A stretch of DNA of 64,000 nt from Xiphophorus maculatus (Eukaryota; Chordata; Actinopteri; Cyprinodontiformes; Poeciliidae). The position numbers were made by a program, and so were the translations under genes. The stretch spans positions 3,411,817 to 3,475,816 of the forward strand of contig NC_036464.1 in the NCBI RefSeq assembly GCF_002775205.1, in the 5' to 3' direction. The notes under the pieces are model-generated. The model did not search any database. It was not told where the DNA came from and saw only the letters and a list, made by a program, of their open reading frames with translations. Shown piece after piece: positions 45,565 through 63,881 of the stretch (within the stretch, counting starts at the first letter, position 1; each line of letters begins with the position of its first letter).

Positions 45565-48468
45565 GCTGAGTGAAGCTGACACCCCACCCACCTCAAAAAA
45601 TTCAGCAAATAGTCTGAGTGGTTAGTGCTCCGTTTGTGCAGGTTTGTGCCGTAAAAATTTTCGTTTGTGCAGCTTTCGTTTTCGAGATATTAAAAATTAT
45701 ATTTTAGGTCATCCAGAGTTCACCATCCCCCCATGTTGCTCCAAAACAAACCAAACTGGGCTAGTTCGTTAGTGCTCCGTTTGTGCAGGTTTGTGCAGTT
45801 AAAATTTTCGTTTGTGCAGCTTTCGTTTTCGAGATATTAAAAGTTATAATTTTGGCCGATGACGTCACCATCCCCCCATGTTGCACCAAAACAAACCAAA
45901 CTAGGCTACTTCGTTAGTGCTTCGTTTGTGCAGGTTTGTGCCGTTAAAATGGACGTTTGTGCAGCTTTGGTTTCTGAAATATTAAAAATTATTTTTTAGG
46001 TCTTCCGAGTTCACCATCCCCCCATGTTGCTCCGAAACAAAACAAACTGGGCTACTGTTCATCATGAGATATTACATAATTTTCTTTCATATGCCAACTG
46101 ACTTCACCTAAATTGATGACTGTGGCCTGCTCTGGACATAACCACAAAGCAAGCAGTTATTAATTTCGTATGTTATTGTGTAAGTTAAATTCTGCAGATT
46201 TTCAGCTGTTGTACAATGTGTACCTTCTTTTGTTTTGAACTTCAATAAAGATTTACAACAAGAAAAAATTTGTCTCATTTCAAGAAATGTTTTTAGATAG
46301 TAATGTTTTCTCACCAATATAACTTTCTCCACAATAATTGAATCCTGTCAATACATAATTTCAAATCTTTTCTCTCCTGCTTGGCTTTTCGTAAGGTTGC
46401 CAGGTTTGGAAGGTGACTTGGCTCGGGATCTCCAATATCCATCAACTCTGATGCCTTTGCTGACCACATACAGCTGCTTCCATCCTACCCTCACACAACT
46501 CTTTTGAAACCTGTGCACAAAGGGTTCCTGACATGAATCTTTTGGACTGGCCAGTGTGCAGGGAGATGTCGGCGCCTTGGATGGAGCACTGGAGCACCAT
46601 TGGGCTGTTGACCGTTGGCTCTCTGTCACGTCATTTTAACATGGCCTTGACACTCTTTACAGAAGCCTTTGATATCAATGTACTTACTAGTGACAGTTGG
46701 ATAAACTTTTGTTCTTTCCAATACAAATGTACATGTGCTTTTCAACTTTTTCCAAACCAGATCATTAATTATGTGACTCCAAGTGCCAGGTTTTAAAATT
46801 GTGTATTCCCTTTTGCCAGATGATGAAAACTGTCATTGTATTCAACTCTTTCTGGTTTAAATTTAACCCATTCTTCAAATGGAACTTCAAGCTGAAAATC
46901 TGTAAATTGTCCAGAAGAAGTTGTGCCTGAGTGAAACTCTGTGTCCACGGGGCTTTCAGGATCACTTTCTTGATCATTTATTTCCAAGCTTGACCATATG
47001 TTTTGTCTGTTTAGTTTTACAAATGTGTACAGGGCTTTTGCAGACATTTTATTTCCCATCTGCTGACTTAGCTCTGTCCAGACAGCGGCAGCTATTGCCG
47101 TTTTCTAGGATAGCCTCTTTTGACTTGCAGAGAACTGCGAAAAGAGACTCTCTGTCCACTGCTGGCTGTCGAGGCATCTAGTTTAAAAATAAAAAGACTT
47201 TGATTAGCATTGCTCAAAATAATAATTCTGGTCTACATAATTTTGAAGAAGCCACAAAACATTGACATTCTAGCAGAGGCTGCACAGTTACAATAGTCTT
47301 CAACTAAAAAAAGTTAAGTTGGCTTTCCCAGTTTCTCATTTCTACTATTTAAGCAATTTTTTTATATACTGTTTTTATATATTTTTTTAATATAAAATAT
47401 ATTTACTAAATATTAAGTACATTACTTGGATGAACCTTGTTGAACCAATGACGCTGCAGTGCACTTCCGGTTTTACTCTGCAAAAACTTTATTTGCTCAA
47501 GCAACTAGCATGTTAGCTATGGATTTTTGTTGTTGTCGTTTTTTACCCTTTTGCTGCATAATCAGCAGAAAGTAAGTCAACAATGTGAATATAATTGTTG
47601 AAACCACCTCCGAAACCAAAGCACAGTTGAACAGTCATACAAATACACACATTATGTTACGGTCACAGCCGCATGTCCTGTATTGACAGGATTCAATTAT
47701 TGTGGAGAAAGTTATATTGGTGAGAAAACATTACTATCTAAAAACATTTCTTGAAATGAGACAAATTTTTTCTTGTTGTAAATCTTTATTGAAGTTCAAA
47801 ACAAAAGAAGGTACACATTGTACAACAGCTGAAAATCTGCAGAATTTAACTTACACAATAACATACGAAATTAATAACTGCTTGCTTTGTGGTTATGTCC
47901 AGAGCAGGCCACAGTCATCAATTTAGGTGAAGTCAGTTGGCATATGAAAGAAAATTATGTAATATCTCATGATGAACAGTAGCCCAGTTTGGTGTGTTTC
48001 GGAGCAACATGGGGGGATGGTGAACTCGGAAGACCTAAAAAATAATTTTTAATATTTCAGAAACCAAAGCTGCACAAACGTCCATTTTAACGGCACAAAC
48101 CTGCACAAACGAAGCACTAACGAAGTAGCCTAGTTTGGTTTGTTTTGGTGCAACATGGGGGGATGGTGACGTCATCGGCCAAAATTATAATATTTAATAT
48201 CTCGAAAACGAAAGCTGCACAAACGAAAATTTTAACGGCACAAACCTGCACAAACGAAGCACTAACGAACTAGCCCAGTTTGGTGTGTTTCGGAGCAACA
48301 TGGGGGGATGGTGAACTCGGATGACCTAAAAAATAATCTTCAATATTTCAGAAACGATAGCTGCACAAACGTCCATTTTAACGGCACAAACCTGCACTAA
48401 CGAAGCACTAACCACTCAGACTATTTGCTGAATTTTTTGAGGTGGGTGGGGTGTCAGCTTCACTCAGC
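45565..48468. mobile_element. DNA element with 790-bp inverted arms, unclassified
   Basis: The left arm 45565-46354 and right arm 47680-48468 are inverted copies that begin GCTGAGTGAAGCTGACACCC. Each arm has three tandem units of about 145 bases starting GTTAGTGCTCCGTTTGTGCA (left arm: 45621, 45768, 45913), then a 300-base inner part identical enough to give the same 75-codon frame in both arms. The 1.3-kb centre holds the 5' part of an unidentified gene on the minus strand. No clear target duplication is seen. Long arms with subterminal tandem units suggest a cut-and-paste element that has lost its transposase core. Confidence 0.8.
46380..47178 (-). pseudogene. Remnant of an element-encoded gene of unknown family
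   Basis: From ATG 47178 the minus strand encodes MPRQPAVDRESLFAVLCKSK. After a frame slip it continues VWTELSQQMGNKMSAKALYT, FVKLNRQNIWSSLEI and VPFEEWVKFKPERVEYNDSF. After a stop it goes on PGTWSHIINDLVWKKL, TKVYPTVTSKYIDIKGFCKE and DPEPSHLPNLATLRKAKQER. The pieces stay in order and resemble an N-terminal module I associate with uncharacterised animal transposon proteins, but I cannot name the family. The frame runs into the left arm, so the arm boundary appears to have cut the gene; no catalytic domain is present. Confidence 0.5.
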
Positions 48469-53672: not shown

Positions 53673-56463
53673 ATGGACGGCTTCACCGGAAGTTTGGGTG
53701 AGTACGGGACCCGACGCACCCAGAACCGAACCGAACCTGCTCACCTGCTCGTGCATAGGTAGGAAGGTGAGGGCCGCACGCGCCTCTGGCGGGTTTACAC
53801 GTGTCACTGCTGTTTGTTTCAGGAAGAGGCTGCACCGCCCCTCTGGCCGCTGCAGGGCCACAAAACCAACACCTCCACCCGCAGGAGGGTGTACAGCAGG
53901 GTGTCAAACTCCAGTCCTCGAGGGCCAGTGTCCTGCAACTTTTAGATGTGCCTCTGCTGCACCACACCTGAACAGAATAATTAGGTCATTAGCAAGGCTG
54001 GGAGAACTGACCTACACCAGGAGGAGGTCATTAAGTCATTTCATTCCAGCATTTCGTACCTGTGGCACATCTAAAAACTGCAGGACTGCAGCCCTCGAGG
54101 ACTGGAGTTTGACACCTGTGGTGTACAGAGTCCAAACCTGCCAGAACCGGGTTCTGGTGTGGTCCCAGCTGGGTGCAGCTAGTTCAGGTAGCAGAACCCA
54201 GCTGAACCTGGAGGAACAGAATTGTTTCTAGTCTCCCAAGTCCAGCACAATACAGGTCCAACCGGGTCGAACGGCCCATTAGAAACCAAGGGCAGCAGTG
54301 GTCCTCAGTTGGTTCTGGAGCCCCAGGTTGGGCCACACATAGTCCTCTACTGGAAGCTGATTGGACGATCCATTAGTGCAGGAGTGTCCAACTCCAGTCC
54401 TGCAGGTTTTAACTGAGCCTCAGGTACAAACGGCTTCATCACCTCAGTTCTCCAGAACCTTCACGGCCTCATTGTTCTGTCCAGGTAAAGCAGAGGCTCA
54501 TCTAAAGGTTTCAGGGCAGCAGGCCTCCAGGACTGGAGTTTAACCCCTGGGTCTTAGTGTTTTGGTTCTGATCCAATCCACTGCTCTGTTCTGCTGGTCC
54601 CGTTTCATCTGGTGAACACGGGATCAGTTCACAGGGTCGGTTCCCCTCTAGGGTTCTGTTCCTCTTGGGTTTTGGTTCCCTGATGGGTTTTATTAAAGTA
54701 ACTGGGTCAGAACTGGTTTCAGATCTGTCCAGGTCCTGTCGGATCAGAACCTGTGACCGGGTTCAGGTTGGATCCTCAGCTCTTCTGCAGGCTGTTAATC
54801 ACCCTCAGATTCAATCCAGGTGTGGCAGAAGGGAAACATGCAGGGGTTAAAGGTCACAGTGTAGGGAATACCCCCCCCCCCCCAGGTGTTCTGATACTTG
54901 GAACCATGTAACGGGCCTTCGGTTCTGGTTGTGTTGCTGCGGTTCTGAGCTGGTTCTGGTGTCTGTGCAGACGACAGCATGTCGGCGACCAGCGTCTCCG
55001 ACGTCAACGACCGTCTGTCTGCGCTGGAGCTGCGCGTCCAGCAGCAGGAAGACGAGCTGACGGTGATGAAGGCGGCGCTCGCCGACGTGCTGCGCCGCCT
55101 CGCCGCGTCTGAGGATTCTGGGGCCAACAGGAAGCAGCACGGAGCCAAAGGTAAGGCGCTTCCACCTGTTGCCATGGATACACGCTGCAAGGCGCGGTCA
55201 CCAGCTACGCTGCACCCTGCAGGCGGCGCCGCCATGCGCGAAGCCTCGTCTCTGTCCTGCATCGCCAACGGCGGCACGCCCGGACGCAAGAGAGACTCCG
55301 CCTCCGTCACCAGGAAGGAGACGGTATCTTCGGCCGCCAAGAGGTAAGAACCCACCGGGTCAGCACTGGGGCCGGCAGAACCAGAACCGACCAGAGGGCA
55401 GTAGAAACTTTAGAACCAGAGCAGACCCGACCAGAACCAGAGTAGAACCCATCAGAACTGAAGCTTGGCGCTCTCTCATGGTCCCGGTTCTGTTCACAGC
55501 GGCTCAGAGAAGAAGAAGGAGGCGAGCGGTCAGCGCTCCCACATGGAGGAGATCCAGGAGCATGAGGAAGCTCCGCCCCTAAAGGAGCCGTCACCCAATC
55601 ACTCGTCCCCCATCCTGTCCCACCCCCCCCAGAGGTCGGCCCCGCCCCCTGACTTCGCCAAAGGCCACGCCCCTAAAAGGTTCCACTTCCTGATTTGTCG
55701 GCTGCATCTGACCTGTTTTCCTGCTGATGCTGCTCTGACCTCACCTACTAACCCGTCTCTGAGGCTTTCCCTGCACCTGATTGGCTGAGGGTATTCTTGA
55801 TCAGCCAATCAGGTTTAAGAGTGGGAGGAACTTTGAAACTGCCTTAATGCAGGAGCTGCAGCCCTGACTGCTGTTCTGCTTATTTCCTTATTACTGGGTA
55901 CTTTAACCTGCTAACCAACTACAACCAGCTAACTGTAACCAGCTAACTACCTACAAACTGTAACCTGATAAAGAACTCACCAATTAACTATCCTGCTAGC
56001 TAACCTGTGACCTGCAAACTGCTAACTGACCTGTAGAACCCAGGTCACTGGCTTCTAACTAGCACAGAGGGGTATTGTCTGCATGGTCTGTTTCCATAGC
56101 AACAAACGCTACATAATGTTCTGTCTGATCTCCTCAGGCTACCTTAACCCTTTCAGTCCGCCTTAAGCATCTTCCTCCAGGCTCTTCTCTGATTCTTCTT
56201 CACTGCTGAAATGAGCTGAAGGTGTTTGAAATGAAACCTTTCACTCCTCACCTTGATCCTGCCTTGCTTTTAACTCCTCCCCCTCTGGCTCCTCCCCCTC
56301 TAACTCCTCCCCCTCCGGGTTCTCACTGCGTCTCCTGGTGCTTTGGGTGTTTGTGAGGCAGGGAGTCTCTCTGTTGTTTCTGAGTCAAAGCTTTGACATT
56401 TCAGCGTCAATGAATAAAAAAGTGATGATGAATCTGATGAGAGTTCAGTGATTCCTGCTGCTC

Positions 56464-56525
<62 letters not shown>

Positions 56526-59500
56526 TCCAGAGGTCCCAGCGTAAAGCGGTCTTCAGGAATGGAGCGATCCCAGAGCAGCAACTGGGATTCAGCAGAGAAG
56601 AACCGGAACAAGCTGGTGAAGGCAGCATCTACCTCCAAGCTGCTGGCCAAAGTGGTGAAGAACGCAGACAAGTACAACACACACACACACACACACACAC
56701 ACTTGGGGTTTAATAACCCAGCTGAGATTACTTGAGAACCTGTGAGTGTCGGGTCCGATTAGGGAGGAGAGTAATGAATGTTTCCTGCTCTTTCAGGCAC
56801 AAAGACCCGGTGGTCAGCCAAGGTAGGTTGTCCTTCCTCGCCAAACACACCACACCCATCATCATCATCATTATCGTCACTGTCTACCAGCCAATAGGAA
56901 TCCAGAGGGTCCAGATGTTTTCCGGCCTGTAGTCTGTCAGACGCCATGTTGTTGTTGTTGTTGTTGTTGAGTGACCATGTGACCATGTCTCTGTCTCAAA
57001 CCAGCCAAAATGTCGACCCGAGAGAAAAACAGCCTCGCTGGTAAGTTCAGCTGAAGCCCGCTAACAGAAAGTGTAACACTTCCTGTTTCTGAACCAATCA
57101 CCTCCTTCTGCGTGCTTCCATTGTCTGGCTCACTCATCCATCTGCTGATGTCACTGTTTGGCCCCGCCTCTTCCTTGTTTATAGAATTTATCTGCAAGAA
57201 AAATCACCCTGATTGGAGCCTGAACTTTTTCAAAGCTTCACAGCGAATCAGAACAGTTCCTTGTGTTCAAATCAGGCCAATCACAGGCCTTCTGTGCCTG
57301 TGATTGGCAGAGAAGGTACCGCTGTACCTTGATTGGTACCTCTGCAGGGACGGCTCGGAATATCCGAGTTGTTTTTATTGACGACTCAGACTAAAACGGC
57401 CTAAAGCTCCTTCTGGGTGACTTTACCTCACCTGTCTAAAACCTGCCCCTCACCTGTCTACAAGGCTTACCTGCTTCTCACCTGCTCTGGGTTTGGGGTT
57501 GGTTTTTTCCTCCTGGGATTCTGTCAGCAGAACCTTCGGGCTCCTACTTGAGGTTCTGGTCTGACCGGTTCTGTTACAGCAATGGCCCATCTGACCCAAA
57601 CCTCGGTTCTGTTTGTTGTTTCAGAGGGAAACTCTATCAAGATGTTCATGCGAGGTCGACCAATCACCATGTTCATCCCTTCAGACGTGGAGAACTACGA
57701 CGACGTCCGGGCCGAGCTTCCTCCAGAACGACTCAAGCTGGAATGGGTGTATCCTTCCGACCAGTCGGAGAACCAGTACCACCAATTAGACTAATAGAGC
57801 CCCAGATGGAGCCCAGTAGAACCCCAGGCGGTCCAGTAGAACCATGAGTGATCCAGTAGAACCTCAGGTGCGGTTCCGGTGCTCCTTGACCCTCTGCAGG
57901 TACGGGTACCGCGGTCGGGACTGCCGGGCCAACGTCTACCTGCTTCCCACTGGAGAGATCGTCTACTTCATCGCGTCCGTGGCGGTTCTGTTCAGCTACG
58001 AGGAACGGACCCAGAGGCATTACCTCGGACACACCGACTGCATCAAGTGGTGAGGAACGCTCGGCGTCGCTTCCTGCTCCGCCATTGGCTGCTGCTGTTG
58101 GTGATGTCATCGCTCTCTGTCCGCAGTCTGGCCATCCATCCGGACAAGATTCGGATCGCCACCGGACAGATCGCCGGAGTGGACAAAGACGGACGGGTGA
58201 GCAGAACCGGTTCCGTTCCCAGAATGGGAAGGTTCTGTTGGGGGAACCAGCAGATTTTAGTTCTTAGCACAATGTGCAGTGATGGCATAGTTAATTTGAA
58301 AAAGAAACTTTAATCTGATTACTCCTTGAAAAAGTAACTTAGATTACAAGTAACCTTTTTAGTTACTTTCAGCACCTGCTGACAACAACCTTCCTCCAAT
58401 CAATGTCAAATTACACTGAGTTTTGCCAATACTTGTGTAATCGCCATTTATTTTATAAACATCAACAATGTGTCTCATTGTTGAACCATTAAACAATAAA
58501 TCGTTTCATGGTTACAACAGTCAAAAAAAACCTTTAGTCATTTTTGCGTGTTTTTCTTAGTTCCACTATTGTCTGTAAAACTCTAGATAGGATTTTAGAG
58601 CCCCCTTGCAGCCCCCTCTGTGTTACGGCCCTGCTGGCTCCACCAATCAGATGGCTGCACAGATTAGTGACACTTATCTTAACATTAATGATTAGAGTGA
58701 TGTTCAGTTGTGTAACTTTACAAACTCGTTCGTTGGTGGCTGTTTTCACGTTTATTGATCTGTTCATGTTAGTCTCCATGTTTAAAGTTTTCTATATGAC
58801 CTGTGACGTCATTCACAGGTCATATAGATATTATTACATTAATACATATTCATATTACCTAGACATTAACAAAGATATTTGGACGGATCATCCAGGAAAT
58901 GATGGACAGGGAGAATCCGACTGAAACGACCTGGATGTCAGTCAAATTCTGGGGTTTATTGAGTCTCTGCTTATTTCTAAATGAGCAGCTTCACCTTCAA
59001 AAACAAGCCCAGAAAACCGAACCGACTCATTAAATTTGCAAGTGACTTTAGAAAAAACAAGCCCAAAGTCGCTTATAATAATTGGACCTGATGACAGAAA
59101 CAAATCAAAGTCAAATGCAGTTTGCATCAAAATAAACAATCACCAGTTGCTTAGGCCTGTCGATAAACAATAAATCAATTAATCGTACGATAAATTAAAC
59201 CTATCAACCTCATTTTAATTATCGGCATTATCATCTCTTCCGGCCTTTTTCTCTTTCTGTTGATGACACTGAATGAAAAAAGGCTCAACTCCGGTGCTCT
59301 CCACTGACCCTCCCTTCCTCATTTCCTTAGTGTAAAGCCCAGCGCAGAGACACGATCTTAGAGCTGTCGGCCCATTTTCAAACCCTGACAGATCACACAT
59401 TAGCCGACAGAAATCCTAGGTATAACGGTTCCATCGGGTTCGGTCCTGCCCTGTGGTGTCCAACAATGGGCACAAAATAATGGCTACAAGTTCAGTGAAC

Positions 59501-62477
59501 TAATTTTAAAACCAGGCATTAATCAATGCTTTACTACAATCTACCTGCAATGCATGTGGCTAGTGTCAGCGTAAAGTCCTGACTGAATGAAAATCATTAG
59601 AACCTGTTTACGTCACGTTAAAGAAGAACAGCTGAAAAGTTACCGGGTTTATCAACTGTGGTAGTAATTTCGCTCCAACTCCTCCTCTTGTCATTTCTAT
59701 ATTCTTTGCATGTTGAATAAACATTAATGTTGTTTCCACATATCATCTCCAATGTCAGCTGGACTTCGGGTTGCGCCGTGTCAGCTGTTTGGGATTCCCC
59801 TCCATAATTTCCCCTCAGAAAGCAGGGAGGGGAATCCTGCTTTCTGATTGGCTACCTGTCACATTCAACAGGCTGCTTTAAGCTCCCAGTCAGTAAAAAC
59901 CCCTGATTTGGATCGGAGCGGCAACGACGATCTACCGTAACACACCACACAATCTTAGAAAGACCAACGTTCTAAGATTGTTGTAAGGGGAAAAATAGGA
60001 ACAAAAAATCATGTAGTGTGAATTATTGCATCAGGTAGTCGATGTGCCCATCTTCTCTATTTAAATCTAATTATTACTGAAGGGCAACATGATATACATA
60101 CTTCATAATCTGCACTCTTTTGGTTGAATGCAGTATTTATTTCCACTTTGGCTTTATGTTGTTTAGGTTTTTTTCTAGTACATTTTTGTTAATGGAGACT
60201 GAGGATCCATTTCATTTTTGTTTTTGGTTGTTTTGTTTATTTTGTTTATCAGCTCCAGTGTTAAATATTCTTTTGAAAATAAAGTGTATCTATCTTTGGC
60301 AGGAAATCACATGCATTATTACATCATTTCCATTAAATCAGTGTAAAAAGGTCTTCAGACAATATTATCGTTTATCAGAATAATTTTCGAGACAATTAAT
60401 TGTTGAGCAAAATTTGCTATCGTGACAGGCCTAGTGTTGCTGAATCAAAACTTCCTGATAGCATAGCTAGCTGATTAATGCTGGTTCTGATTGGTTGGTT
60501 CTGACTGAGCTGAGTAATTCTGCAGAACACAGGGAGGAGATAGATTATTATGTATTTATTTATTCATAAATTCTCTCTCATGTTTGGACATATTTAAAGT
60601 TTTAATATGTGAAATCTGTGTTGTTGTTGTTTACGCTGCAGCTTTAAGCAAACGTCCCGGGTGGAGCAGAAATGACGCTCCGTCTGTGAAAAATCCCCAC
60701 CAGTTGAACAGCGAGAGCAGAACCAGCGTCTCGCTCCGCAGCTCCAAGGCTTGAATTATTTTTCAGGCTATTTGTTCAGCTTTCTGACAGTCATGCTAAT
60801 CCGGGGAGTGTTGCTAGCTGTGCTGCTCTACCTGCTGTCTGGATCCGGTTGTCATTTTTTCCTTATGTTGAGCCTCCATGCAGCCAAACTCAGTCAAGTT
60901 CTTGTTTTTTCTCCTCCTCTCCACTTGGTCTTTTATGGCTCTAGTGTCCCTTATATGAAAGTAGGCTGACAGGAGAGGCGGGAAGACATGCGGCAAATGT
61001 CGCCGGGTCCGGGAATCGAACCCGCGCCGAATAAATCTAATATCATATTAGATTTGTTGTGTTGATGCATTGTGACATCATTTTCCGCCGCAACACGCCA
61101 ACGTCCCCGTTCACTCAGAGCGTTAAAGTTTCACACGACAGGATTTGTTGCTGCGCAGCGAGAAGGAAACAGGAAACCAGCTGCAGGCTGAGAATGAGAC
61201 GCAGGTGATCAACAAGAGATGCTGATCGATCACCGATCATAAACTTTTACACGGAAATCGGACGAATATAATCGGAAGGGTTAGTGTGTGTTGAAACGAA
61301 CAGAACCGTTTGAACGGGTCGGGTCAAAACTCAACCACCAAAGACGCTGGAGTCTGGTTGGGACCTCGACCTCTGAATGTTGAACCTGGCTGGTTCTGAC
61401 TGGTTCTGTGCGGTCCGTTTCAGGCGCTACAGCCTCATGTCCGGGTCTGGGACAGCGTCAGCCTGTCCACCCTGCAGGTCATCGGTTTGGGAACCTTTGA
61501 ACGCGGCGTCGGGTCTCTGGCGTTCTCCAAAGCAGTGAGTGTCCATCAGGAGGCGGCTATGATGCACATTCTGGTTCTGTAGAACCTTCCTAATGGGTCT
61601 CTGTGTTTCAGGACTCGGGTCAGCACCTGAGCGTCATCGATGACTGCAACGACCACATGTTGACGGTTTGGGACTGGCAGAAGAAGTCCAAGATCGCAGA
61701 GATCAAGGTGAGCTGGTTCTGACTGGGTTCTCCCGGGTCTGCAACCGGTACTGGCTGGGGTGTTCTGGTCCCTGGTTCTGACAGGTCTGGACCCGGTTCT
61801 AAGTGGTACCCGTTGTTTCCTTACAGACGACCACCGACGTGGTTCTGGCCGTGGAGTTCCACCCGACCGACCCGAACACGATCGTTACCTGTGGGAAGTT
61901 CCACATCTTCTTCTGGGCCTGGAACGGGAACTCGCTGCTGCGCAAGCAAGGACTCTTCGGGGTGAGCAGAACCCAAGAGAACCTTTTGGACCGCCCGCGT
62001 TATTACTGGCTAAAGGGATTCTGCACTGAGCTGCAGCTCATGATCCCAGTAGAACCAGTAAAACCAGTAGAACCCTGAGTGACTGAAAATCATCTGGCTG
62101 AGAGGAAAACCTTCAGTTTAGAGCCAGAAAATAACTTTGTTCTAGAAACGGACCAGTGGCACCAAACTGGTTCTGGTTCCGGTGACCAACTGGTTGGTTC
62201 AGTTGGACAGAACCTTCAGTAGTCTGGTCACATGATCCAACATTTCCTCTTCTGTGGTCAGAGTCACGACCGGCCCAAGTTCATCCAGTGCCTGACCTTC
62301 CGGAGCAACGGCGACATCGTGACCGGAGACTCGTCCGGACAGCTGCTAGTCTGGACCCGGAACTCTGCCGAGGCGCCCACGGGCAAGGCGCCGCAAGGTG
62401 AGAGGAGGACGTCATCAGACCTGAGCTTCATGTCTGACCATTTGATGAGGTCCAAGTGTCGGCTCAGACACTCACTG

Positions 62478-62525
<48 letters not shown>

Positions 62526-62684
62526 CCTTCCAGATGAGGACCGACCTGCGGCCAATCGAAGCTCATGAGAAAGGAGTTTTCTGCATGTGCGACATGCGGA
62601 GCGGCTCGCTGCTGACCGGAGGAGGAAAAGACCGCAGGATCGTCCTGTGGGACCAGCAGCTGCAGCTTGACCGCGACATCGAGG

Positions 62685-62726
<42 letters not shown>

Positions 62727-63881
62727 ACGGAGCTTAACCCCCCATGTGTTCTCAGGTCCCGGATCAGTACGGGAACATCCGGGCGCTGGCGGAGGGAAAG
62801 GGGGACGAGTTCCTGGTCGGGACGTCCAGAAACTTTGTCCTCAGAGGGACCTTCAACGACGGCTTCCAGGTGGAGGTCCAGGTGAGGTCACATGATGACA
62901 TGACATCACAGAGAGGACCTGTGGTGCATTCAGGGTCTCTCTCTCTTTCTGCGGTGCGTTCAGGGTCTTTCTCTCTCTGCGGTCTGTATAGGGTTTTTTT
63001 CCCTGTGGTGCATTCAGGGTCTCTCTCTCTCCACGGTGTGTTCAGGGTTTTTTTCACTCCACGGTGCGTTCAGGCTCTTTCTCTCTTTCTCTCTCCACGG
63101 TGCGTTCAGGGTCTCTCCGAGGTCTGTATAGGGTTTTTTTTCCCTGTGGTGCATTCAGGGTCTCTCTCTCTCCACAGTGCGTACAGGGTCTCTCTCTCTT
63201 TCTCTCTCCACGGTGCGTTCAGGGTCTCTCTCTCTCTCTGCGGTGCGTTCAGGGACACACGGACGAGCTGTGGGGTCTGGCCGCCCACCCCAGCAGGGAG
63301 CAGTTCCTGACCTGCGCTCAGGACCAGATGGTTTGTCTCTGGAACTCTCTGGATCACAGCCTGCAGTGGAGCCGCACTCTGGAGGTGAGGGGGCGGGACT
63401 TGTGACTGGGGCCTGCTGATTGGTTGGAGGGCTGACGGGTGTGTTGCTCCTGCAGGAACACGGACACTGTGCAGAGTTCCATCCCAGTGGAGTTGTAGTT
63501 GTCATAGGAACGCACTCCGGAAGGTCAGCGATGTCATCGCTGTGTCTGCTTCTGATTGGTTGCGCCCGCCTCCCTCTCCTTCTGATTGGTCGCTCTGCAC
63601 TCTTACATGTCTCCAGGTGGTTTGTTCTGGACGCCGAGAGCAAAGATCTGGTCGGGATCCACTCGGACGGCAACGAGCAACTGTCGGTTCTGCGTTTCTC
63701 AGTCGGTGGGTGGAGTCTGCTGTAACCGTGGTGATGTGAAGGGACGATGGTTCCCATCATGCCTCTCTCCCTCCATCCTGCAGATGGCAGCATGCTGGCC
63801 GTGGGGTCTCATGATAACTTCATCTACCTGTACAGCGTGTGGGAGCAGGGCCGCAGGTACAGCCGCTACGGGAAATGCTCG
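53673..63881 (+). CDS. eml4: EML4, echinoderm microtubule-associated protein-like 4 (5' part, runs off the window)
   Basis: Twenty in-phase exons: 53673-53697, 54971-55150, 55223-55343, 55500-55679, 56531-56671, 56797-56822, 57005-57040, 57625-57748, 57900-58049, 58127-58196, 61424-61534, 61612-61707, 61827-61961, 62262-62397, 62526-62683, 62756-62881, 63253-63384, 63456-63523, 63617-63705, 63784-63881. They encode 734 residues of about 980. The start MDGFTGSL and trimerising coiled coil (DVNDRLSALELRVQQQEDEL) are EML4-like, followed by a basic serine-rich microtubule-binding region, the HELP motif (IKMFMRGRPITMFIPSD) and WD blades of the TAPE propeller (HPDKIRIATGQIAGVDKDGR). The donor of exon 4 (AAAAG|GTTCC) is weak; a same-phase donor at 55634/55635 is possible. 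EML4 binds and stabilises microtubules, including in mitosis. Confidence 0.95.
53897..54120. mobile_element. hAT MITE in eml4 intron 1
   Basis: The ends CAGGGTGTCAAACTCCAGTC and (complement) CACAGGTGTCAAACTCCAGT enclose 224 bp. A perfect 8-bp duplication GTGTACAG flanks it (53889-53896 and 54121-54128). This is a very common fish MITE type. Confidence 0.9.
54379..54549. mobile_element. Related hAT MITE, older copy
   Basis: The ends CAGGAGTGTCCAACTCCAGT and (complement) CAGGGGTTAAACTCCAGTCC enclose 171 bp. The flanking octamers do not match convincingly, which fits an older insertion. Confidence 0.65.
56468..56524 (+). repeat. (TG)n at the eml4 exon 5 acceptor
   Basis: A pure TG run ends seven bases before the acceptor CAG of exon 5. 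It takes the place of most of the pyrimidine tract. Confidence 0.95.
56677..56702 (+). repeat. (CA)n at the eml4 exon 5 donor
   Basis: A CA run begins five bases after the exon 5 boundary (donor GTACAA). It is complementary to the TG run upstream of the same exon. Confidence 0.95.
57005..57040 (+). other. eml4 exon 7, conserved cassette microexon
   Basis: This 36-nt exon encodes AKMSTREKNSLA. Human EML4 has a 33-nt optional exon (known as 6b from fusion-transcript work) encoding AKMSTREKNSQ. Length divisible by three and short flanking exons (26 nt before) allow in-frame skipping. Confidence 0.8.
58274..58420. mobile_element. Possible hAT-like end in eml4 intron 10
   Basis: CAGTGATGGCATAGTTA followed by AGTAACTTAGATTACAAGTA resembles ends of a fish DNA element family. 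The other end and target duplication were not found. Confidence 0.35.
59152..60433. mobile_element. hAT-like non-autonomous element in eml4 intron 10
   Basis: The ends TAGGCCTGTCGATAAAC and (complement) TAGGCCTGTCACGATAGCAA fit a fish hAT family. The flanking octamers CAGTTGCT and GTGTTGCT match at 6 of 8 positions. The centre holds the module shared with 19715-20410. No transposase is visible. Confidence 0.65.
60930..61030 (-). repeat. Truncated tRNA-derived SINE
   Basis: It shares TCTAGTGTCCCTTAT and ACATGCGGCAAATGTCG with 581-770 and ends within the B-box region (GGGAATCGAACCCGCG). The tRNA-like 5' part is missing. Confidence 0.6.
62479..62522 (+). repeat. (TG)n at the eml4 exon 15 acceptor
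   Basis: A pure TG run leads straight into the acceptor CAG at 62525 with no pyrimidine tract. Confidence 0.95.
62686..62722 (+). repeat. (CA)n at the eml4 exon 15 donor
   Basis: The donor reads GAG|GTCACACACA; the CA run starts two bases into the intron. It is complementary to the TG run before the same exon. Confidence 0.95.
62918..63252 (+). repeat. Minisatellite of 3' splice-site copies in eml4 intron 16
   Basis: About twelve irregular units of 20-40 bases each combine a TCTCTCT or TTTTTTT tract with GTGCGTTCAG|GG (variants GTGCATTCAG, GTGTGTTCAG, CTGTATAG). The last unit is the true acceptor of exon 17, and the units include the exon's first two bases. Confidence 0.9.

Follow-up and report, generated by a model that had tools for sequence, protein, structure and literature searches.

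Tandem repeats that carry splice signals have already been described on the donor side of introns. According to the title of a 1995 report (NAR 23:1854), a minisatellite gives the IFI6 transcript several alternative splice sites, which are donor sites and are used. The available text of De Roeck et al. (2018; PMC5954066) describes a VNTR in ABCA7 intron 18, composed of 25-bp units beside an exon, in which the first two bases of the unit are a splice donor. RNA testing in that work linked a cryptic donor to retention of a single unit; longer VNTRs raised skipping of exon 19, whereas unit retention was independent of length. Here we describe an array in an EML gene of the fish Xiphophorus maculatus that likewise could give a transcript several alternative splice sites. 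Its sites are acceptors and are known from sequence alone, whereas the ABCA7 VNTR, as far as the available text describes it, is on the donor side, longer and polymorphic; retention of one ABCA7 unit shifts the reading frame, whereas the nearest decoys of the eml4 array preserve it. If a splice-site minisatellite is taken to be a tandem unit of about 10-60 nt with a splice-site consensus, the eml4 array is one, with YAG/GG (the slash marking the splice site) in 12 of 12 units; because its sites are acceptors and not donors as in IFI6 and ABCA7, this acceptor-side version is a variant of arrays already known. No acceptor-side splice-site repeat appeared among the matches listed in the open-licence PMC literature.

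Two further bodies of work bear on this intron. The first AG downstream of the branch point is the one favoured by the spliceosome, in the available parts of three papers (PMC1431707, PMC7317903, PMC2991248), and two of them state that AGs less than 12-15 nt from the branch point can be bypassed (PMC1431707, PMC2991248), a zone that Corvelo et al. put at maybe just 7-8 nt (PMC2991248). In NF1, exon skipping resulted from 24 of 49 mutations making a new AG in the AG exclusion zone, in the available text of PMC7317903, so decoy AGs close to a real site are often harmful. Introns with an AG exclusion zone (Gooding 2006, PMC1431707; Corvelo 2010, PMC2991248) follow the same logic of distances between branch point, first AG and bypassed AG as the intron studied here, but in the available descriptions they keep an AG-free zone, whereas in the eml4 array unit-end AGs recur every 22-36 nt up to the site. 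Tandem repeats are also found in fish introns, in the GH and MSTN-2 genes of Sparus aurata, and a predicted acceptor outscores the real one in one MSTN-2 allele; the available text does not describe these repeats, unlike those of the eml4 array, as built from the real acceptor (PMC3045353).

The array was found in a 64,000-nt stretch, here called the window (C22:3411817-3475816), of a 704.3-Mb assembly of 101 contigs; unless stated otherwise, positions are those of the window. An EML protein is encoded by plus-strand exons that run from about 54.9 kb as far as the end of the window. In a single-exon profile search, the exon at 57901-58050 matched the HELP motif (PF03451, E 1.2e-15), those at 61827-61961 (E 1.3e-13) and 62525-62683 (E 6.4e-9) matched the first EML propeller (PF23409), and two other stretches, at 57630-57749 and 54970-55137, matched no profile. 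The two exons of interest, numbered 16 and 17 after an earlier note made from the sequence, are separated by a GT-AG intron of 371 nt (62882-63252, plus strand; donor GT at 62882-62883, acceptor AG at 63251-63252). Exon 16 (62756-62881, plus strand) has 42 codons, covers the end of the first beta-propeller and a linker, ends in VEVQ, and matches PF23409 with E 7.6e-5, profile positions 237-267 falling on exon residues 1-31. Exon 17 (63253-63384, plus strand) is symmetrical, with 132 nt and 44 codons, and begins in phase 0 with GHTDELWGL at 63253; it matches the start of the second propeller (PF23414, E 2.4e-11, profile position 1 at exon residue 6). All these matches to PF23409 and PF23414 are below the curated whole-protein cut-offs, as fragments would be expected to be.

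The junction between exons 16 and 17 is sound. All 86 residues of the joined protein align without gaps to EML1 (PDB 4ci8, E 7.2e-30); the solved-structure search gave its lowest E-value, a sum across many repeats, to 2ymu, a repetitive WD40 protein. In an EML paralogue on contig C18 (locus L002) this position is likewise interrupted by an intron, whose acceptor reads TTTCCAG/GGTCACAC. We take the gene to be eml4 rather than another EML on the basis of human EML4 and of its neighbour KCNG3; a channel-like ORF at 42.7 kb matches PF00520 with E 0.0063, below the cut-off. A brain-specific splice event in EML4 lies, presumably, near the N-terminus and not at exon 17. The event is conserved to zebrafish in the available text of its report, which does not name the exon (PMC4438066).

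Most of the intron consists of the array. Twelve tandem units, each ending in YAG/GG, occupy 62916-63254 on the plus strand (TRF limits 62919-63254, period 28, 11.6 copies, score 169). The earlier note had described about twelve near-copies, most of them ending in CAG/GG or TAG/GG, with the true acceptor last and the repeat extending into the exon bases GG, and this description was confirmed. AG/GG closes 12 of 12 units (CAG in 10, TAG in two), and the array adjoins the exon, reaching two bases into it, such that unit 12 (63224-63253, plus strand) holds the real 3' splice site after 63252. Cut at YAG/GG, the units measure 19, 30, 28, 26, 28, 28, 36, 22, 27, 28, 36 and 30 nt, and their 18-nt ends have a mean pairwise identity of 0.76, with 9 distinct ends among the 12. 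Unit 2 is identical to unit 12, the unit of the real acceptor, at 29 of 30 bases. Selection holding AG/GG in the units was considered and is not shown by this constancy, as four more columns of the 18-nt end (C, G, T, T) are equally invariant (12 of 12).

By their middles, the units fall into four types, A (CTGTGGTGCATTCAGG), B (CCACGGTGCGTTCAGG and variants), C (TGCGGTGCGTTCAGG) and D (GGTCTGTATAGG), in the order A C D A B B B D A B B C. Within units 3-7 (62965-63110, plus strand), units 3, 4, 5 and 7 recur as units 8-11 (63111-63223, plus strand), a second block copy one unit shorter, with a 41-base exact run in common, implying that the array grew partly by block duplication. The duplication is visible only with gaps: in an ungapped self-comparison at offsets 20-249, none exceeded 60% identity. 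Minus the array, the intron would amount to 34 nt plus one unit, about 53-70 nt; five of the eight neighbouring introns are slightly longer (71-92 nt).

We scored the acceptors that the array offers, using a simple 23-position matrix with approximate frequencies. By this measure the real acceptor (63253) reaches 6.27, the fourth weakest of 15 placed in the gene (2.54 to 11.40). Upstream of it the intron holds 17 AGs, 11 at unit ends and 6 others, and five of the 17 score at least as high as the real site. The decoy ladder proposed earlier is thus present at the level of sequence, with several decoys equal to or better than the real site. The 11 unit-end decoys score 2.24 to 6.84, four of them at or above 6.27 and the other seven lower. 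The highest-scoring AG of the intron (CTCTCTCTCTCCACAG/TG, 63176-63177, plus strand; 9.18 against 6.27) sits in unit 10, where sister units show CGG, and sets an exon start at 63178. Because decoys match or beat the real site, matrix strength cannot single out 63253. The idea that RNA structure conceals the decoys gained no support: the fold of the intron plus 10 exon bases (-110.8 kcal/mol) is ordinary beside shuffles, with z -0.48 and 31 of 100 at least as stable.

Seven of the 17 upstream AGs are in frame with exon 17, and five of these are open into the exon, at -30, -66, -75, -207 and -261, so the suggestion that extra intron sequence could be included also stands at this level. Of the unit-end decoys, four of 11 are in frame, all four open, and seven are out of frame; the reading frame from 62992 is open to 63405. 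The nearest decoy (TTCAG, AG at 63221-63222, plus strand; exon start 63223, +30 nt) would insert the 10 residues GLSLSLRCVQ. The decoy of unit 10 (AG at 63185-63186, plus strand; exon start 63187, +66 nt) would insert the 22 residues GLSLFLSPRCVQGLSLSLRCVQ, and the high-scoring site at 63178 (+75 nt) would insert 25 residues, CVQ followed by GLSLFLSPRCVQGLSLSLRCVQ. In each case the insert would fall between the end of the PF23409 match (exon-16 residue 31) and the start of the PF23414 match (exon-17 residue 6), an inter-propeller linker position in which it might be tolerated.

The last 28 nt before the real AG (63223-63250) contain no A, so that an adenosine branch point must lie at or above the nearest decoy, at A63221 or A63210. 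A63221, which is inside the nearest decoy AG itself, lies 31 nt above the real site and is the sole TNA candidate close to that site. The base after it is G, and its pairing with U2 is poor in a crude cofold, a measure that is uninformative as a branch-point score, since several other acceptors of the gene have no candidate below 0 kcal/mol. With the branch at A63221, the real AG would be the first AG downstream, and the same geometry would repeat along the array because full units are 22-36 nt long. A63210 (CTCCAC, plus strand) is 42 nt above the real 3' splice site, and lacks a T two bases upstream; the nearest decoy AG ends 12 nt below it. From there the decoy can be placed at the edge of the bypass distance of less than 12-15 nt, but if the zone is 7-8 nt, as Corvelo et al. 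suggest, 12 nt would be too far. Neither adenosine is a good branch site. In contrast to an ordinary AG exclusion zone, the AG-free zone ahead of the real AG holds no TNA candidate. Two TGAC motifs lie at 62898 and 62903, 17 and 22 nt from the 5' splice site; branch points at such distances are probably too close for use.

The earlier note had set the ladder of decoys against the need to choose the correct exon at its far end. The real acceptor is indeed the last, but the choice is less puzzling if A63221 is the branch point, or if A63210 is, 12 nt above the decoy. The arrangement may also not be exotic, because another acceptor of the same gene, at 54971, shares it (one of the 14 other placed acceptors): its 21-nt AG-free zone has no A, and its sole TNA is the A of the zone-defining AG, at 22 nt.

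How particular is the array to this locus? A unit 22-mer, allowing up to 3 mismatches, had 22 matches in the assembly. Eight lie in the host intron, including all those with 0 or 1 mismatch, and the other 14 are scattered, with 2 or 3 mismatches each; a reversed control pattern gave 6. A 411-nt query (the intron plus part of exon 17) had four matches, namely itself, the paralogue exon and an unrelated AGAGAG-type array that is present twice. Neither the DNA search nor the pattern search found another copy of the unit in the 704-Mb assembly, the DNA search being one that passes over simple repeats and scores best candidates only, so that distant copies could be missed. A dispersed repeat or mobile element finds no support in these searches. 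We also rejected the presence of the same array in the homologous intron of the paralogue: the C18 intron carries an unrelated 20-nt array of TTAGC type (L002 1160-1462), which stops about 40 nt before the acceptor.

The intron has nine acceptor-like sites (score at least 5.27), the real one and 63178 included. In 500 single-base shuffles the mean was 2.75 and the maximum 10, and other 371-nt stretches in the window also reach nine; the site count alone is therefore not exceptional. What is special is the regular repetition and its end at the real acceptor. Compared by TRF (period 15-80, at least 4 copies; 8 rows, giving 6 distinct arrays), the array has 0.78 acceptor-like sites per copy against at most 0.14 in the other five, in a small sample of 264 kb (the window, 20 kb downstream and 180 kb spaced) that includes a window picked for this array. 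The earlier view that arrays of splice signals are rare is supported within that small sample; on the donor side such arrays are known.

Several other repeats were seen along the way. Two exons of the host gene, at 56531-56671 (runs included, 56468-56702) and at 62526-62683 (runs included, 62479-62723), are each flanked by dinucleotide runs. A pure (TG)n run, of 28.5 copies at the first exon and 22 at the second, comes immediately before the acceptor, and a pure (AC/CA)n run, of 13 and 19 copies, immediately after the donor. Being complementary, the two kinds of run could form a duplex that encloses the exon; in fish introns, (AC)m-(GU)n pairing has reportedly been found. Further upstream, a 640-nt inverted repeat (45716-46355 and 47679-48318) has arms that are 99% complementary and 1323 nt apart, with 145-nt tandem repeats within and beside them, and has the appearance of a recently inserted palindrome or foldback element. 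Elsewhere in the assembly, an unrelated 31-nt array (7.9 copies, by TRF on L004 only) lies at 1346-1590 of loci L003 and L004, on C20 and on C45, a contig of 87 kb. The two loci are identical from base 1001 to 2100 but not further to the left; C45 may in part duplicate C20.

Taken together, these results lead us to think it fairly probable that the array is a recently amplified, locus-private minisatellite derived from the intron's own 3' splice region, mostly tolerated, with some in-frame leak. A once short intron would have undergone tandem amplification of its 3' end, that is, the pyrimidine tract, the CAG and the first two exon bases, and later growth would have come partly from recent block duplication. 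The array cannot be accommodated within the exon, so its last unit would be the functional acceptor. Exon 17 would be spliced mainly at 63253, from A63221 or A63210; its dominant use is expected because the protein is conserved. Some transcripts would probably use -30, -66 or -75, adding 10, 22 or 25 residues between the propellers with little effect. We prefer this neutral reading because the searches found no second copy, the blocks seem to be recent, and there is no sign of selection on the AGs.

The same decoys could instead be used meaningfully, the sites at -30, -66 and -75 giving EML4 a longer linker whose length is set by the unit number of the allele. The nearest three upstream AGs (five of 17 overall), and all four in-frame unit decoys, are in frame and open, 63178 outscores the real site, and the insert falls between the two propeller matches. 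Openness, however, follows from the stop-poor composition of the units, with no need of selection; seven of the 11 unit decoys are out of frame, and the homologous intron of the C18 paralogue has an unrelated array. We regard such a device as unlikely. The earlier proposal that competition among the sites tunes splicing found no support here. An assembly artefact, with the repeat collapsed or mis-expanded, is very improbable: tandem arrays are error-prone in assemblies, but these units differ (9 distinct ends among 12), the array of about 340 nt fits in a single read, and it occupies a single locus in the assembly.

The array might also act through its pyrimidines. PTB prefers CUCUCU, and PTBP1-like repressors bound to CUCUCU would silence the 132-nt exon 17, which would be skipped more often with a longer array. 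TCTCT occurs 32 times in the 371-nt intron against twice in 938 nt of eight neighbouring introns, which is nonetheless a trivial consequence of pyrimidine tracts. Skipping would preserve the frame, but it would remove the start of the second propeller and so is likely to be damaging. Precedents exist in the available texts on ABCA7, where VNTR length drives skipping of an exon that encodes 44 residues (PMC5954066), and on new AGs ahead of an acceptor, which often lead to skipping (PMC7317903). On balance, silencing of this kind seems quite improbable. A more speculative reading, decidedly doubtful in our view, is that the AG of each unit could serve either as an acceptor or as the branch adenosine of the next unit, as the unit length of 22-36 nt falls in the usual range from branch point to acceptor. 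Expansion would then keep the real exon spliceable while each new unit supplied a further acceptor, giving allele-dependent, partly in-frame linker peptides between the two propellers of EML4.

The array offers a natural competition in acceptor choice: within a single short intron, a dozen similar sites lie progressively farther from the exon. Should the real site nevertheless be used faithfully, position relative to the branch point and the exon would outweigh site strength. If it is not, minisatellite turnover would directly write protein length variants. Either outcome would inform the reading of exon-edge tandem repeats in genomes.
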